In this document: piece after piece, positions 39,821 through 46,767 of the stretch
How positions within the stretch are numbered: the stretch's first letter is position 1
Layout of the letters: every line of letters starts with the position of its first letter
Source of the DNA: Pseudomonadota bacterium
GTDB lineage: Bacteria > Pseudomonadota > Gammaproteobacteria > Steroidobacterales > Woeseiaceae
NCBI GenBank assembly: GCA_022572185.1
Contig: JACZWL010000025.1
Coordinates: forward strand, 1 to 46,767
Length of the DNA: 46,767 nt
Reading direction: 5' to 3'
The notes under the pieces: generated by a model
Seen by the model: only the letters and a program-made list of their open reading frames with translations
Database searches by the model: none
What the model was told of the DNA's origin: nothing
Position numbers and translations under genes: made by a program

Positions 39821-40827
39821 TTTCCCAAATCCGGCGTCACTTCAGTCTCATTAGGGCCCTCAAACACGATTGGTAAAGACTCCAGGTGCCCTCCACCATT
39901 GCGCAGAACGACAAAATGCAAATGCGGTCCGCTCGAAAAACCAGTATTTCCGGAATCGGCGATATATTCACCGCGCTTCACTTCATCGCCGGGCCTCACG
40001 CGAATGGTGTTCCAGTTCAGATGAGCATAGACGCCAATCGTACCATCGTCGTGCAATATACGGACCAGGTTTGCCGATGCCCCCTGCTCTGCCGGGTCGG
40101 ATCCGGCGCGAAAATTCGTGCTGGCCACTTCGATAACTGTGCCTCCTCGAGCGGCATAGACGTCAGTTCCGACCGGCATTGCAAAATCGACGGCGTAATA
40201 ACTATCAGCGGTATTGTGCGTTACCTGAATAGGAAACGCCTGCGAGACCATGAATTTGTTTGCTATCGAAAACGGCGCACGATACGGACGGTGTGGCCTG
40301 TGTTCAGCGTTCGGATCCCCAAGCAGATACAAGAAGCGATAGCTGATATCGGGCACACCGACGTCGCCAACGGCATCCAGCTGCAGCAACTCAGTCTGGC
40401 TGCGGGGAGGCAAGAGCCAGTCCATTGACTGATCGGGTGGTGGTCGTTCGACATTTTCAAGTACGTCAAGCACGAGCACGAGCTCAACCGGCGCATGAAA
40501 ATCATTTGTTGCATGAAACTGAATTTTCCTGCCGACCAGACGATATGCCAGCGATACCTCCGGCTTCTTGAGCCCGCTGGGTAAATCACGCACTTCGGCG
40601 AGTGCCTCCGTCTCGGGAGCCCTGTCGGTAAATACCCACTCGCCGTCCGGGCCACGATATTTGTAGAGTGCCTGTGCCAGGCTGATTCCGGAAATGCCCA
40701 GCAGGATCGCCGAAATCAGAAGCGCTGATGATTTTGAACGAAGGTAGATCGCAGGACGGCAGCGCCCGAGACAAGCCCTACCCGATGTCGATGCGCTGCC
40801 AGCCATTTTCCGTGCGTCTGATTTCAT
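39802..40827 (-). CDS. Periplasmic M23 (LytM-type) metallopeptidase with DUF4124-like N-terminus
   Basis: A 341-residue protein with a membrane or signal segment (SALLISAILLGISGISLAQA). A DUF4124-like stretch follows (LYKYRGPDGEWVFTDRAPE), and the C-terminal lysostaphin-type domain covers residues about 200-325. Zinc-site features are the His in VTHNTADSYYAVDFAMPVG with its Asp, and the HLHF motif (GFSSGPHLHFVVL). It probably cuts peptide crossbridges or acts as an amidase activator. The 5' end overlaps the tandem HtrA gene by 50 bp; a second Met at 40806 reduces this to 29 bp. Coupled expression with that gene is likely. Confidence 0.85.
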   Translation of the reverse strand: MKSDARKMAGSASTSGRACLGRCRPAIYLRSKSSALLISAILLGISGISLAQALYKYRGPDGEWVFTDRAPETEALAEVRDLPSGLKKPEVSLAYRLVGRKIQFHATNDFHAPVELVLVLDVLENVERPPPDQSMDWLLPPRSQTELLQLDAVGDVGVPDISYRFLYLLGDPNAEHRPHRPYRAPFSIANKFMVSQAFPIQVTHNTADSYYAVDFAMPVGTDVYAARGGTVIEVASTNFRAGSDPAEQGASANLVRILHDDGTIGVYAHLNWNTIRVRPGDEVKRGEYIADSGNTGFSSGPHLHFVVLRNGGGHLESLPIVFEGPNETEVTPDLGKQLAAY

Positions 40828-43567
40828 AGGCTGGCCAGTATTGGTTGTCGAGCTTCAGAGTTATGATTTCTGCCGCACCATTCCATGTAATGGTCTTCAG
40901 GCGCACTGCCGATTTATCCTTCTTGCCCCTGACAACATCAACGAAGGTCTGCAGGTCCGGCGTCGCCTGGTCGTCCACTTCGACTATCCGCCGTCCGGCC
41001 CACAATCCGTAACGGGTTGCGGGAGATCCGTAACTAAAGAACGCGATATACACACCGTACGGATCAATACCTCGTTGCGCGGCCATTGCCCGGTGCGGAT
41101 CCTGCAGCAATGCTCCGGCCCAGGATACTGCCCGTTGTATTCCCAGCCCGTCCAGTGCAACCGTCTCAATTTCGAGCTGCTGTACAGCGCCGTCCCGCCA
41201 GGCCGTTACGACGACATCGGGCTTCTGCACTGCGCGCTCGAGCTCACGGAAGGTGGTAACCAGCTGCCCGTCGATCGCCAGTATCATGTCGCCGTTGCGC
41301 AGCTGGGCTGCGGCTGGCGACCCGGCCACGAGGCGCCTCACGCTCAATACGCGCCGGCCCTGCGGGTTGTAATTTTCGAGTTTTGACAGCCACACCTCGT
41401 CAAGTCCCAGTTTGCGGGCGGCAAACAACGGAGCATAGGCAAGCTCTGCTTGCAGCGAATACAACGGCCGTCCTGTCCGCACAAGATCGACGAGTTCGGT
41501 CACCAGATCACTGCCGACCCCGCGATTAAACTGGCCGGAATCATTGCCGCTCTGAAATGAAAAGCTGGACCACAGGCTGACGACACGTCCGCGTTTATCG
41601 AGCAGCACGCCGTCAACATCAGGCGGTGCATTCACCAGGTCAATGCCTTCCAGATTCGAATCCCGAAATCTAAGAGTGCGCGACAACGGTAGCGTCAACG
41701 GATCGACGGACGAGACGGTACTCGCCTGATGCACAAGCTGGTGGTCGCCTTTGAGACCAACGACCCAGACCTCGTCTCCGGGTTCGACCAGTTCGGTATT
41801 GAACGTTGCCGCCCTGACCGGTGTGTCGCCGATCGCCGCCGGATCGTAGGAGACCACCGCCAGGTTGTGCAGTGGGTGCACGTACTCAACCCTGCCCCGG
41901 ACTTCGAGTGAGCCTGCAAATGTGATGCTGACGTCCCCCAGTGCGACCGGAACCGTATTTCTGTCGACGACGACGAGACCCCGCTCGGTGTCAACGATCA
42001 GCCCGGTGCCGTAATAATTGCGGTCAGATACGCCGGATACCGTATAAGGCAGGTCGAAGGTGACGACAACAAGTGATGGCACTATCTTTCGAACACGCGG
42101 ATCGCTGTGACTGCTGAACCGCGCACTGCCGGTTTCTGCTGCAGAGCTGTCGGGGCCAGGCGCCAGGTCCCGGCAGGGCCAGATACCCGTAGTGTCATCT
42201 CGCTGACAATGCCGCGCTGGAAACCATCTCCTGTCCATCTCGATCGAGCGCACGATACTGTTGCGCGGGTCTTCTATGGTCTTGTACCGAATCGTCGTCC
42301 GATCGCGGTCGCCGAGACCGTTGAGGATCGCTTCGAGGTCAGCAATGCTGGCGACGACTATACCGCCGACTTCCGTGATTACCGCGCCGCGTGGTATTGC
42401 AGATCTCGACAACACATAACCGGGGTTTGCAACATACACGCCGTTTATCGGCCGATTGTAGTGACGAGCCTGCTGATACGACAGGTTGTGAACGATCGCA
42501 TCACCAAACTCCATGTACTCGTCCGGAGATATGCTGTGAAGATCGCCAACAAGCACTTCTTCGCTTATGTGACGCCCGCCCCTTTCAAGTTCAATGGTGA
42601 TCGTGTTACCCACGTTGTCATCGAAGATCGCCGCCAGCGGCACGAACTTCGTGACCAGTTCGCCGTTGATACGAAGCAATATGTCGCCCGGCGCCAGTTT
42701 GCCGGCGGCATCCGACTCGGGGATGACCTGCTCTACCGTTAGCATGCCAGTCTGTTCCGGATGCGACGAACGGACCAGCTGTTCGGTATCTTCCGTAAGG
42801 CCAAGTCTTCGCAGTTCATCATAGGGCTTGACCTGGAAAACAGTCTGCAACGTGCCGCGCGACACGGGCTTGCCGTCCTGCAGGAGTTTCAAAACTCGGG
42901 CAATACGATCGAGCGGCAGGAAGAAACTGCTCGCCGCCGAATTGTTCGCGCCGGCATTCAGCGCAACAACTTCACCCTCAATATTGACGACCGGCGATCC
43001 GGATGAGCCGCCGGACGTGCCCGATGCGGCCTGAAAATAGAAAGTGTTGAAATCGTTGTACTTGCCGCGACCGTAATCCGGCGCTCTTCGGTCGAGTCGA
43101 GCAATCGTCCCCGATAGAATCGAGAGCTGCTCGCCAGCATCGTTACCGACGACGCGGATCTCACGGCCAATGGCAGCTGCCCCCGGCACAAGGCGCAGTT
43201 CCGTCGGCTCGATATAACGCAATCCGCGCGGATCATATCTGAAAAAGCCGAAATCATGCACTGGATCACGATAGATCGGCGTCAGCCGCACTTCCTCATT
43301 GTTCAGAAAGATAGCCTCTGCCACGACCGGTCCAGGCGTTACAACGTGGCGGTTCGTCAGGATCAGGCCGCGTTTCGCATCGACGACGAACCCGGTAGCC
43401 TGTGTCGAAGAGTTCCACTCGGTATCGAATGCACGAGTGCTGTCAACGCGGATGGACACGATGCCCGACGAAATTTTTTCAATCGTGCCAACCCACGCTG
43501 GCTCTTCGGAGAACGCCGGCAGCGTGAGACAAATCGCGACCAACATCAGACCGATTCTGCTTGGCAT
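40778..43567 (-). CDS. Duplicated HtrA/Deg-like protein, one active and one degenerate protease domain, four PDZ-like domains
   Basis: A 929-residue exported protein with a signal peptide (RIGLMLVAICLTLPAFS). The first protease domain keeps the trypsin triad: His74 (LTNRHVV), Asp105 (PVHDFGFFRYD) and Ser189 (GTSGGSSGSPVV). PDZ-like domains follow at about 235-340 and 355-445. A second protease-like domain at about 490-700 aligns to the first but has Asn537, Asn568 and Asp652 at the three catalytic places. Two more PDZ-like domains lie at about 705-805 and 810-910. This plan is that of eukaryotic Nma111/Deg7 proteins. I chose the ATG at 43567 (AGGAGA just upstream) over one at 43675 because it begins the signal peptide. 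It overlaps the M23 peptidase gene. Confidence 0.88.
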   Translation of the reverse strand: MPSRIGLMLVAICLTLPAFSEEPAWVGTIEKISSGIVSIRVDSTRAFDTEWNSSTQATGFVVDAKRGLILTNRHVVTPGPVVAEAIFLNNEEVRLTPIYRDPVHDFGFFRYDPRGLRYIEPTELRLVPGAAAIGREIRVVGNDAGEQLSILSGTIARLDRRAPDYGRGKYNDFNTFYFQAASGTSGGSSGSPVVNIEGEVVALNAGANNSAASSFFLPLDRIARVLKLLQDGKPVSRGTLQTVFQVKPYDELRRLGLTEDTEQLVRSSHPEQTGMLTVEQVIPESDAAGKLAPGDILLRINGELVTKFVPLAAIFDDNVGNTITIELERGGRHISEEVLVGDLHSISPDEYMEFGDAIVHNLSYQQARHYNRPINGVYVANPGYVLSRSAIPRGAVITEVGGIVVASIADLEAILNGLGDRDRTTIRYKTIEDPRNSIVRSIEMDRRWFPARHCQRDDTTGIWPCRDLAPGPDSSAAETGSARFSSHSDPRVRKIVPSLVVVTFDLPYTVSGVSDRNYYGTGLIVDTERGLVVVDRNTVPVALGDVSITFAGSLEVRGRVEYVHPLHNLAVVSYDPAAIGDTPVRAATFNTELVEPGDEVWVVGLKGDHQLVHQASTVSSVDPLTLPLSRTLRFRDSNLEGIDLVNAPPDVDGVLLDKRGRVVSLWSSFSFQSGNDSGQFNRGVGSDLVTELVDLVRTGRPLYSLQAELAYAPLFAARKLGLDEVWLSKLENYNPQGRRVLSVRRLVAGSPAAAQLRNGDMILAIDGQLVTTFRELERAVQKPDVVVTAWRDGAVQQLEIETVALDGLGIQRAVSWAGALLQDPHRAMAAQRGIDPYGVYIAFFSYGSPATRYGLWAGRRIVEVDDQATPDLQTFVDVVRGKKDKSAVRLKTITWNGAAEIITLKLDNQYWPAYEIRRTENGWQRIDIG

Positions 43568-43658
43568 GTTCTCCTGATAACCCGTGTGCACGATTTCTCC
43601 TGTTTCCATGGTTTCTGGACTGACAGAAAACCACCCAGTTCCCTCTTTCCTTGAGATA

Positions 43659-43738
43659 GTCGGTGTTCCGACCAATAGTCGGCCCGGCCGACCATGCTGT
43701 CGATTCCCTCGACAGGGCCGAGCCCCGTCGCCTGGGGC
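43659..43738. repeat. Cluster of four short hairpins after gcvPB
   Basis: Four small inverted repeats lie in 80 bp: GTCGG/CCGAC at 43659-43672; a near-perfect 15-mer palindrome at 43678-43692; CTGTCGA/TCGACAG at 43697-43715; GCCCC/GGGGC at 43722-43738. The first two share ATAGTCGG-n-CCGACCA. They sit between the gcvPB stop and the tandem HtrA start, where gcv transcription may end or be processed. No T-run is present. Confidence 0.55.
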
Positions 43739-43745
43739 GCGACCC

Positions 43746-45218
43746 TTACTCTGACCTTACCTTGTAGGCGAGATCCAGATTTCTCGCTGCCTTCACGTCG
43801 TCCAGCCGCCGGACCGGCATCGTGTAAGGCGCTTCCTTGTGCCTCGCTCCATCCTTCTTCGCATCCTCGGCGATCGCGATCATCGCGTCAATGAAGCGGT
43901 CGAGGGTTTCTTTACTTTCTGTCTCCGTCGGCTCGATCAGCAGGCATTCGGGCACCAGCAACGGGAAGTAGGTCGTCGGCGCATGAAATCCGTGGTCCAG
44001 GAGGACTTTGGCGACATCCATCGCGGTCAGATCGAACGATCTCGACTCTTTCTTCAGTGTGATGATGAACTCGTGGCTGGCCCGCCGTTGCGGATATGCG
44101 AGTTCAAAGCCGGCATCCTTGAGACGCGCCTGCATGTAATTGGCGTTCAGCGTCGCGAATTCTGCGACGCGCTTCATACCGTCCCGCCCGATCATGCGCA
44201 TGTACACGTAGGCCCGCAGCAGTACCCCGGCATTTCCCATAAACGCCGACAGACGCCCTATGGTCTGCGGCAAATCGTCTTCTGTCAGCCAGTCGAAGAA
44301 CACCTCCCCATGGTCTTCTGTCTTACCGACGACTGGCACGGGCAAGAACGGCAGCAGACGTTCGCCGACGCCGACCGCACCCGAGCCGGGGCCGCCACCG
44401 CCATGCGGCGTCGAAAACGTCTTGTGCAGATTCAGGTGAATGACATCAAAACCCATATCACCTGGCCGGACTTTGCCGAGAATAGCGTTCAGATTGGCGC
44501 CGTCGTAGTAAAGCAGTCCACCCGCATCATGCACGAGTTCCTGGATTTCCATGATCCTGCGCTCAAATACACCGAGCGTGGAGGGATTGGTCAGCATGAT
44601 GCCAGCCGTATTGGGCCCCAGCGCTTTCTTCAGTGCCTCGATATCGATATCGCCCTCTTTATCCGTCGGCACTTCACGTACGATGCAGCCACACATCGTT
44701 GCCGTTGCGGGATTTGTGCCGTGCGCCGCATCCGGGACGATAATTTGGTCTCGTGCATGATCGCCCTGCGCGACATGATAGGCGCGAATCATTGCCACAC
44801 CCGCAAACTCTCCCTGCGCCCCGGCCATCGGCGTCAAAGAAACGCCTTGCATGCCGCTGACCGCCTTCAGCATTTCCTGGAGTTCATACATGCACTCGAG
44901 AAACCCCTGGCCGTAGCTTGCGGGCCCGAGCGGATGGCGGTGGATGAAGCCCGGCAGCATGGCCAGGGCATTACAGGCCCTCGGGTTGTATTTCATCGTG
45001 CAGGAACCGAGCGGGTAGAATTGCGTGTCTATCGAAAAATTCTCTTGCGACAAACGCGTGAAATGCCGGACGACCTGCAGTTCGGAAACCTCGGGCAAGA
45101 GCGCAGGCTCGTCTCTGAGAAATGCTTTCGGTATGCCGGCTTCGGCGGCTTCCGCAGGAGCCTGGGCAAATGCCCTGCGGCCCGGCCGCGATTTTTCGAA
45201 GATCAGTGCTTCGCTCAT
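43746..45218 (-). CDS. gcvPB: Glycine dehydrogenase (decarboxylating) subunit 2
   Basis: The PLP-carrying half of the P-protein of the glycine cleavage system, found as a separate subunit in some bacteria. The 490-residue protein shows [52 protein letters not shown] and the PLP Lys266 in [18 protein letters not shown]. It begins 40 bp after the tpx stop and works with GcvPA as a heterotetramer. Confidence 0.96.
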
Positions 45219-45258: not shown

Positions 45259-45774
45259 TCAGTCTTCTATTTTGATACCGAGCGCCTGATACGCCGCCGC
45301 GTAATCGGGTTCGCTCGAAAGGTCTTCGATTTGTTCCCGATGCACAACCGTGTTGTTTTCATCGAGTACGACAACGGCCCTCGAGAACATGCCGGCAAGC
45401 GGACCCTCGATGATTTGCACGCCATAGTTTTCACCAAAGCCCATGTGGCGAATGGCGGACAGCCCGACAACTCGCTGCAGAGACTGCTTATCGCGAAATC
45501 TCGAATGCGCGAACGGCAGGTCATAGGAAATCATCAGCTCCGCAATGTCATCGTAATCTTTGGAATACCTGTCGAATGCGATGACCGACTTTGCGCAGAC
45601 CGGTGTGTCGATACTCGGGAAAATATTGAATATCTTGCGCATGCCGAGCCAGTTCGCGAGTGTGACGTCTTTGAGGTCCGTATTGACCAGGGAAAAATCA
45701 GGGGCCTTGCTGCCGACAGTTGGCAGCTCCCCGTAGGTTCGGTATGTCCCATCCTGGTATGTGATTGTTGGCAT
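45259..45774 (-). CDS. tpx: Thiol peroxidase (Tpx family) with a single cysteine
   Basis: A 171-residue peroxiredoxin of the Tpx type: APDFSLVNTDLKDVTL, the peroxidatic Cys60 in FPSIDTPVCAKSV, DLPFAHSRF and PLAGMFSRAVVVLDE. Classical Tpx carries a resolving cysteine about 34 residues later (position 95 in E. coli, SRFC). Here that place reads SRFRDKQ and Cys60 is the only cysteine, so the enzyme would need an external thiol for recycling. The gene sits between gcvPA (34-bp gap) and gcvPB (40-bp gap) on the same strand, presumably one transcript. This is not the usual place for tpx. Confidence 0.92.
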   Translation of the reverse strand: MPTITYQDGTYRTYGELPTVGSKAPDFSLVNTDLKDVTLANWLGMRKIFNIFPSIDTPVCAKSVIAFDRYSKDYDDIAELMISYDLPFAHSRFRDKQSLQRVVGLSAIRHMGFGENYGVQIIEGPLAGMFSRAVVVLDENNTVVHREQIEDLSSEPDYAAAYQALGIKIED

Positions 45775-45808: not shown

Positions 45809-46767
45809 TCAGGCGCTGCGTACCTTGCCCGCACTCATAATTTCCTGCAGAGCACTGGCGTAAGCCTCGAGGTCTGCCCGTGTTTTTGTTTCCGTTGCGC
45901 AGACGAGCAGCGCATCGCCAAGCTGCGGCAATTCCCGCGACAGGTCATAGCCACCGAGGATATCCCTCACGGCGAGCGCCTGCAGGACCGGCTCAACCGG
46001 ACGATCCAGCCGGATTCCCGCGTCATGAAAATGAGGGCCGTCGAATAATCGCTCCACACCGTCAATTTGCGTGAGCAGACCTATCAGCGCCGCTGTTTGC
46101 CGCTGTGATGCCAGCGCAACCCTCGCAAGCCCCTGATGGCCCAGCAGCGACATGTAGATCGTCGCCGCAGTTACCATAAGCCCTTGATTTGTACAGATAT
46201 TTGATGTCGCCTTCGCACGGCGAATGTGTTGCTCCCGGGCCTGCAATGTGAGCGTGAAACCCGGATTGCCGTCCAGATCCGTGGTCCGTCCAACGATGCG
46301 CCCCGGCATTTGCCGCACGAGCTTTTGCTTGCAGGCCATGAAGCCGAAATAAGGCCCGCCCGACGCCAACGGCACCCCCAGCGGCTGCCCTTCGCCGCAG
46401 GCGATGTCCGCGCCTTCCGACCCCCAATCACCCGGCGCTTTGAGCAGCGCGAGTGAAGTCGGATTTACGATCGCGATGACCAACGCGCCCTGTGCGTGCG
46501 CCCAGTCTGTCAGTTGATCGATTCGCTCGAGCGTGCCGAAGAACGACGGCTGCTGAATGACGACAGCGACCGGCGCTTCCTGATTACTCAATGCATCGAG
46601 ATTTGCCGTCCCGTATTTCAGGTCCAATTGCAGCCGATCGAAGGTCAGTTTCTGGCTGCCGGTGATCGCTGTAGCTACCTTCCGATACACCGGGTTGACG
46701 CCAGACGCGAGCAATACGCGTCTTGACTTCACCGTCCGATTCGCCCTGACGGCCATCAGTGCAGCCT
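45809..46767 (-). CDS. gcvPA: Glycine dehydrogenase (decarboxylating) subunit 1, 5' end beyond window
   Basis: The N-terminal half of the split P-protein. About 318 residues of roughly 450 are present; the frame is open to the right edge, so the start is missing. Segments include [55 protein letters not shown] and [19 protein letters not shown], all typical of GcvPA. The C-terminus ends in an unconserved tail. An internal ATG at 46756 is not the real start. Confidence 0.94.

Follow-up and report, generated by a model that had tools for sequence, protein, structure and literature searches.

A one-cysteine thiol peroxidase homologue in the glycine decarboxylase operon of Woeseiaceae: stepwise loss of active-site residues under continued selection

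The thiol peroxidase homologue (Tpx) encoded between gcvPA and gcvPB in Woeseiaceae lacks the resolving cysteine throughout the family, and most family members have also lost further residues of the catalytic centre. The location of the gene is ordinary and the loss of the cysteine is a family trait; what is unexpected is that the active site has been taken apart step by step under continued selection. Tentatively, we read this as a repurposing, by which Tpx may have passed from a two-cysteine peroxidase to a single-thiol protein that probably serves the glycine cleavage enzymes.

The window (the whole 46,767-nucleotide stretch of DNA analysed) ends within gcvPA, and its features are collected in Table 1. 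The product of tpx scores 183 bits against the NCBIfam thiol peroxidase model NF001808 (cut-off 123) and is matched by the Pfam families Redoxin and AhpC-TSA; its sequence matches in the PDB are Tpx proteins, e.g. 2xpd, 3hvx and 1qxh. An AlphaFold2 model with a mean pLDDT of 82.5 (47 sequences in the alignment) gave 2xpd_C as the top Foldseek match (E 1e-18, TM-score 0.81, rmsd 5.6). The pLDDT falls below 50 at residues 110-129, a stretch that holds many of the newly fixed positions described below. By overall sequence and fold, by the PxxxTxxC motif with its peroxidatic cysteine and by the catalytic arginine the protein groups with the Tpx subfamily, from which it departs at the site matching E. 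coli C95, where the resolving cysteine is absent. With a single peroxidatic cysteine and no resolving one, it has the sequence of a one-cysteine peroxiredoxin.

Table 1 Features of the tpx locus in the window.
Feature	Position	Strand	Basis or remark
tpx, one-cysteine thiol peroxidase homologue, 171 aa	45259..45774	-	ORF, ATG start
Cys60 codon, peroxidatic and sole cysteine	45595..45597	-	Sequence, within PSIDTPVC
Arg94 codon, at the usual position of the resolving cysteine (E. coli C95)	45493..45495	-	Sequence
Pro53 codon of PxxxTxxC, intact in the window	45616..45618	-	Sequence
Thr57 codon of PxxxTxxC, intact in the window	45604..45606	-	Sequence
Arg132 codon, catalytic arginine, intact in the window	45379..45381	-	Sequence
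gcvPB, glycine dehydrogenase (decarboxylating) subunit 2	43746..45218	-	NF003346 723 bits; 40 bp downstream of tpx
gcvPA, C-terminal part, ends at contig edge	45809..46767	-	34 bp upstream of tpx

The ORF and the alignment, in which SRFR of the window protein stands opposite SRFC of the Yersinia Tpx, bear out the first-pass annotation in its description of a Tpx with Cys60 as the sole cysteine, encoded between gcvPA and gcvPB with short same-strand gaps. A substitute resolving cysteine inside the window Tpx was rejected, Cys60 being the only one. No second, normal Tpx was found either: the assembly, which is 96% complete, gave a single Tpx match at E ≤ 0.001.

The gcvPA part in the window scores 222.8 bits against the GDC-P profile and covers profile positions 142-425 of 429, and contig C96 of the same genome carries the start of gcvPA and then gcvH and gcvT. 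Upstream gcvT and gcvH were checked on this contig, in the locus L054 and in the order relative L090. Positions 46405-46767 of the window form a 363-bp contig overlap in gcvPA with L032:1-363 at 97.5% identity, and the contig break inside gcvPA has the appearance of strain variation within the assembly. Directly downstream of gcvPB lies a large ORF (40778-43675, minus strand); the ORF at the matching place in L054 encodes a trypsin-like protease with PDZ domains.

Three groups of Tpx sequences were compared: the family rows (72 distinct sequences from Woeseiaceae), the order rows (17, from further families of that order) and the class rows (88, from other Gammaproteobacteria). The family rows were obtained from 92 loci by removing identical or contained sequences. 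By hand count, 34 of the 72 come from genomes of the window's family, and the other 38 come from records labelled Woeseiaceae or Woeseia, or merely Gammaproteobacteria, Proteobacteria or Chromatiales; the assignment of these to the family rests on the single clade that the 71 usable rows make up. Two fragments (L088 and L194) were left out of the tree and of the site counts, for which 71 family and 87 class rows were used. Also left out were the Tpx of genome G246 and the fragmentary matches in G039 and G043. Many of the genomes are metagenome bins; the key substitutions nonetheless recur in many of them.

None of the 72 family rows has the resolving cysteine; all 17 order rows and 81 of the 87 class rows have it. 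Since it is absent from every one of the 72 distinct family sequences, the one-cysteine state of the window Tpx is not due to chance. Further cysteines, at varying places, occur in 18 of these sequences. When 88 rows are placed on a tree, the family members group in a single clade (SH-aLRT 99), and one change suffices for the loss of the resolving cysteine. A tree of 175 rows gives the family a support of 100 and groups it with 12 order rows at a support of 96; the resolving cysteine takes six changes overall, counts which by themselves are insufficient to set the direction of change. The pattern is best read as a single loss in a lineage that would already have had tpx between gcvPA and gcvPB. 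Selenocysteine or read-through in the relatives was considered and rejected: stops within the matches were taken as the genes' own end stops, because the alignments of the order proteins run to residue 160-169 uninterrupted by stops.

The same-strand order gcvPA-tpx-gcvPB is present at 67 of the 72 family loci, and the remaining five are cut by a contig end with the reachable neighbour as expected. It also occurs, with a two-cysteine Tpx, at 13 of the 17 order loci; the other four have neither neighbour. Among the 88 class loci, most of which offer a flank of ~0.8-1.5 kb, 47 have the full arrangement, 7 have one neighbour and 34 have neither, and the linked genes encode two-cysteine Tpx. By coordinates, of the 90 Tpx genes in the class survey (which excludes the window's own and includes one from Woeseiaceae), 51 have gcvPB on the same strand no more than 1.7 kb downstream, 16 have it elsewhere, and 23 are without a gcvPB match. 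It is common in the class for tpx to adjoin a split glycine decarboxylase, and the window is no special case; the frequency of this pairing in Gammaproteobacteria suggests a link between redox chemistry and glycine oxidation. In the titles and abstract openings listed, in which subscription papers are mostly uncovered, neither a report of Tpx in a gcv operon nor a natural family of one-cysteine Tpx was found. The two-cysteine proteins from such operons in other Gammaproteobacteria (e.g. L090, L091 and L111) agree with the window in position and strand, and differ from it in that they keep the resolving cysteine together with the Thr and the Arg. Two gcv-linked two-cysteine class proteins (L179 and L187) have Val or Ala in place of the Pro of PxxxTxxC.

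The first-pass annotation had tied the loss of the cysteine to the operon location, and had itself named a two-cysteine Tpx at the same locus in relatives as evidence to the contrary. The surveyed relatives carry just such genes, at the 13 order and 47 class loci noted above, and the operon location was rejected as the driver of the loss on this ground. Outside the family, one-cysteine Tpx were found in six class rows (L149, L159, L191, L193, L196 and L197), all of which retain the Pro, Thr and Cys. None of the 54 gcv-linked rows is of this type compared with 6 of the 33 unlinked ones, which again runs against the annotation, and the coordinate survey agrees. When scored by adjacency to gcvPB the counts are 0 of 50 versus 6 of 37, opposite to the direction proposed, with a p value of 0.005 that is no more than indicative because the rows share kinship (a single family contributes both L196 and L197).

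The same survey bears on the proposal that Cys60 belongs to a one-cysteine peroxidase for which the dihydrolipoyl arm of GcvH is the reductant, which would link peroxide removal to glycine oxidation. Lipoyl-dependent peroxidases exist, Ohr being one, and gcvH and gcvT precede gcvPA both in L054 and, on contig C96, in the window's genome. However, the operon of the relatives holds an ordinary two-cysteine Tpx, the one-cysteine Tpx of other families show no linkage to gcv genes, and catalytic residues are missing from most of the family rows, so that reduction by GcvH is considered quite unlikely. A substitute cysteine in the P-protein was also sought, and no column in GcvPB or in the window-covered part of GcvPA tracks the change in Tpx. 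The nearest candidate, PB178 of GcvPB, is a cysteine in 67 of 69 family, 13 of 19 order and 2 of 48 class rows, and also in all four of the family genomes that have both gcv genes and lack tpx; its presence in 13 of the 19 order rows makes it older than the loss of the resolving cysteine. PA145 of GcvPA is a cysteine in 65 of 68 family, 13 of 19 order and 43 of 52 class rows.

The catalytic centre itself is eroded within the family. According to PMC5719442, P-x3-[T/S]-x2-C is the invariant peroxiredoxin pattern and the Arg is strictly conserved, and PMC5022050 and PMC5719442 assign to the Thr and the Arg a role in assisting deprotonation of the cysteine. Thr and Arg are invariant in the order and class rows, and the Pro varies in only two of them (L179 and L187). 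In the family, Pro53 is lost in 52 of 71 rows, Thr57 in 16 and Arg132 in 9, corresponding to ~2, ~10 and ~8 events, respectively, when counted by parsimony on a quick tree with support below 80 on 29 of its 85 inner branches. On the same tree Cys60, retained in 70 of the 71 rows, has ~1 loss event, in L081. If ~9 events were expected at Cys60, as at Thr57 and Arg132, the Poisson probability of at most one is ~0.001, which is a rough argument. At least one of the Pro, Thr, Arg and peroxidatic Cys is missing in 53 of the 71 rows, and 18, including the window, retain all four. In the exceptional L081 protein (L081:5992-6504) the peroxidatic cysteine is replaced by Ser, and the Pro, Thr and Arg are replaced too.

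Forty sites are at least 93% conserved in the order and class rows, and 31 of these keep their letter in at least 95% of the family rows. The nine that deviate are sites 1, 8 and 15 near the N-terminus, V149I and E151D, which are conservative shifts, and P53, T57, C94 and R132. Conversely, 15 positions are newly fixed in the family, as defined by the same letter in at least 93% of the family rows and in less than 35% of the order and class rows: T32, R46, V64, Y84, H90, A107, I108, H110, G112, G114, N116, M129, F130, N141 and T142.

Part of this pattern would be expected of a one-cysteine peroxidase that is still at work, in which a general thiol (candidates are glutathione, thioredoxin acting directly, and sulfide or persulfide) would reduce the Cys60 sulfenate, and the newly fixed residues would make up for the altered ones. 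Cys60 is almost universal, the window and 17 other rows keep P, T, C and R, the newly fixed residues include His and Tyr, and the one-cysteine Tpx in 6 of the 87 class sequences all have the Pro, Thr and Cys. Against this stands the recurrent loss of the Thr and Arg, to which PMC5022050 and PMC5719442 ascribe a part in deprotonating the cysteine, and a peroxidase still at work is judged somewhat unlikely. Copies with all four residues, the window's included, may turn over peroxide using an outside thiol. Relatives have lost Pro, Thr and Arg repeatedly, which argues against a conserved role as a peroxidase.

Substitution rates showed that tpx is under purifying selection in the family. Among 42 family pairs with dS <1.5, drawn from 60 pairs that are >82% identical, the median dN/dS is 0.079 and the maximum is 0.132. 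The ratio is 0.092 between L069 and L075, both of which lack Arg132. For two-cysteine order pairs with dN <0.05 it is 0.03-0.07. The strongly altered L080, L082 and L086 have values of ~0.16-0.23 to their nearest rows, indicating a constraint weaker than the median. Pseudogene status of the family tpx is unsupported by these ratios, though L080, L082 and L086 are less constrained.

The gene is not present in every family genome. A Tpx match was found in 56 of 72 sampled family genomes, the window's excluded. Nine of the 16 without a match were checked for gcvPB, and four have gcvPA followed directly by gcvPB (L200, L201, L202 and L203, from genomes G035, G038, G056 and G007); in view of these four, tpx is dispensable. 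Of the other five, four have no gcvPB match; the match in the fifth is weaker and falls in a frame of 950 residues, as would fit an undivided gcvP. A relic on its way out, kept mainly for its operon context, might account for such genomes, for the eroding catalytic residues and for the looser constraint in L080, L082 and L086. The low median dN/dS, the comparably low ratio between the two copies without Arg132, the 15 newly fixed positions and the match in 56 of the 72 genomes argue to the contrary, and make a fading relic very unlikely.

Repurposing, the reading preferred here, would imply the following history. The ancestor was a normal two-cysteine Tpx, which very probably lay between gcvPA and gcvPB before Woeseiaceae arose, because of the gene order in the relatives and the trees. 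The resolving cysteine was then lost once, in the Woeseiaceae ancestor, on the evidence of the tree. Without it, recycling through an intramolecular disulfide is impossible, as follows from the mechanism. Selection on fast peroxide reduction would subsequently have relaxed, with loss of the Pro, Thr and Arg in many members; given the established chemistry, fast peroxide reduction is unlikely in the absence of the Thr or the Arg. Meanwhile, Cys60 and the rest of the protein stayed conserved, and the 15 positions became fixed. We infer that Cys60 most likely acts by slow reversible modification or docking and not as a bulk peroxidase, and that the protein may be a redox sensor or a thiol-protecting or adaptor subunit of the co-encoded glycine cleavage enzymes. 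Peroxide removal could be carried by other proteins, as the window's genome encodes three PrxQ-like proteins and one further peroxiredoxin-like protein, all four of which score below the curated cut-offs of the listed NCBIfam models.

Several findings weigh against repurposing. The near-universal Cys60 and the 18 of 71 intact rows also fit a continuing one-cysteine peroxidase, the constraint is weaker in L080, L082 and L086, tpx is dispensable, and no cysteine in the covered parts of GcvPA and GcvPB tracks the change. Sharing an operon with the gcv genes does not prove joint function. It is conceivable, though unlikely, that glycine decarboxylase in Woeseiaceae has gained in Tpx a new kind of regulatory subunit with a peroxiredoxin fold, which evolved within the operon and whose single thiol senses oxidation or relays it directly to the P- or H-protein. 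Such a subunit would be a former peroxidase that lost first its resolving cysteine and then its peroxide-activating residues. The order of erosion under selection can be placed on a tree, which makes the Woeseiaceae Tpx a natural experiment on roles of peroxiredoxins other than that of peroxidase, and the availability of two-cysteine and one-cysteine versions of one locus makes the redox link to glycine oxidation testable.

Among known systems, the closest are the Tpx proteins, atypical two-cysteine peroxiredoxins with structures from E. coli (1qxh and 3hvv), Yersinia (2xpd) and M. tuberculosis (1y25). The window protein resembles them in its sequence (41-47% identical in structure alignments), in its fold as compared by Foldseek, in PxxxTxxC and the Arg, and in its match to NF001808. 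In contrast to that subfamily, the Woeseiaceae proteins lack the resolving cysteine, 53 of 71 rows replace the Pro, Thr, Arg or peroxidatic Cys, and residues specific to Woeseiaceae have become fixed. The Prx6 and AhpE groups are one-cysteine peroxiredoxins, with a single peroxidatic cysteine that needs an outside reductant. The window protein shares with them the single peroxidatic cysteine; its best sequence and family matches, however, are to Tpx. In Prx6 an FSH motif precedes PxxxTxxC, according to PMC5719442, whereas the window Tpx has NIF in place of FSH. The E. coli C95S protein (PDB 3hvx), whose PDB title refers to an intermolecular disulfide bond, is likewise a one-cysteine Tpx; there the cysteine was removed in a laboratory mutant, whereas in Woeseiaceae its loss is natural and fixed in the family.
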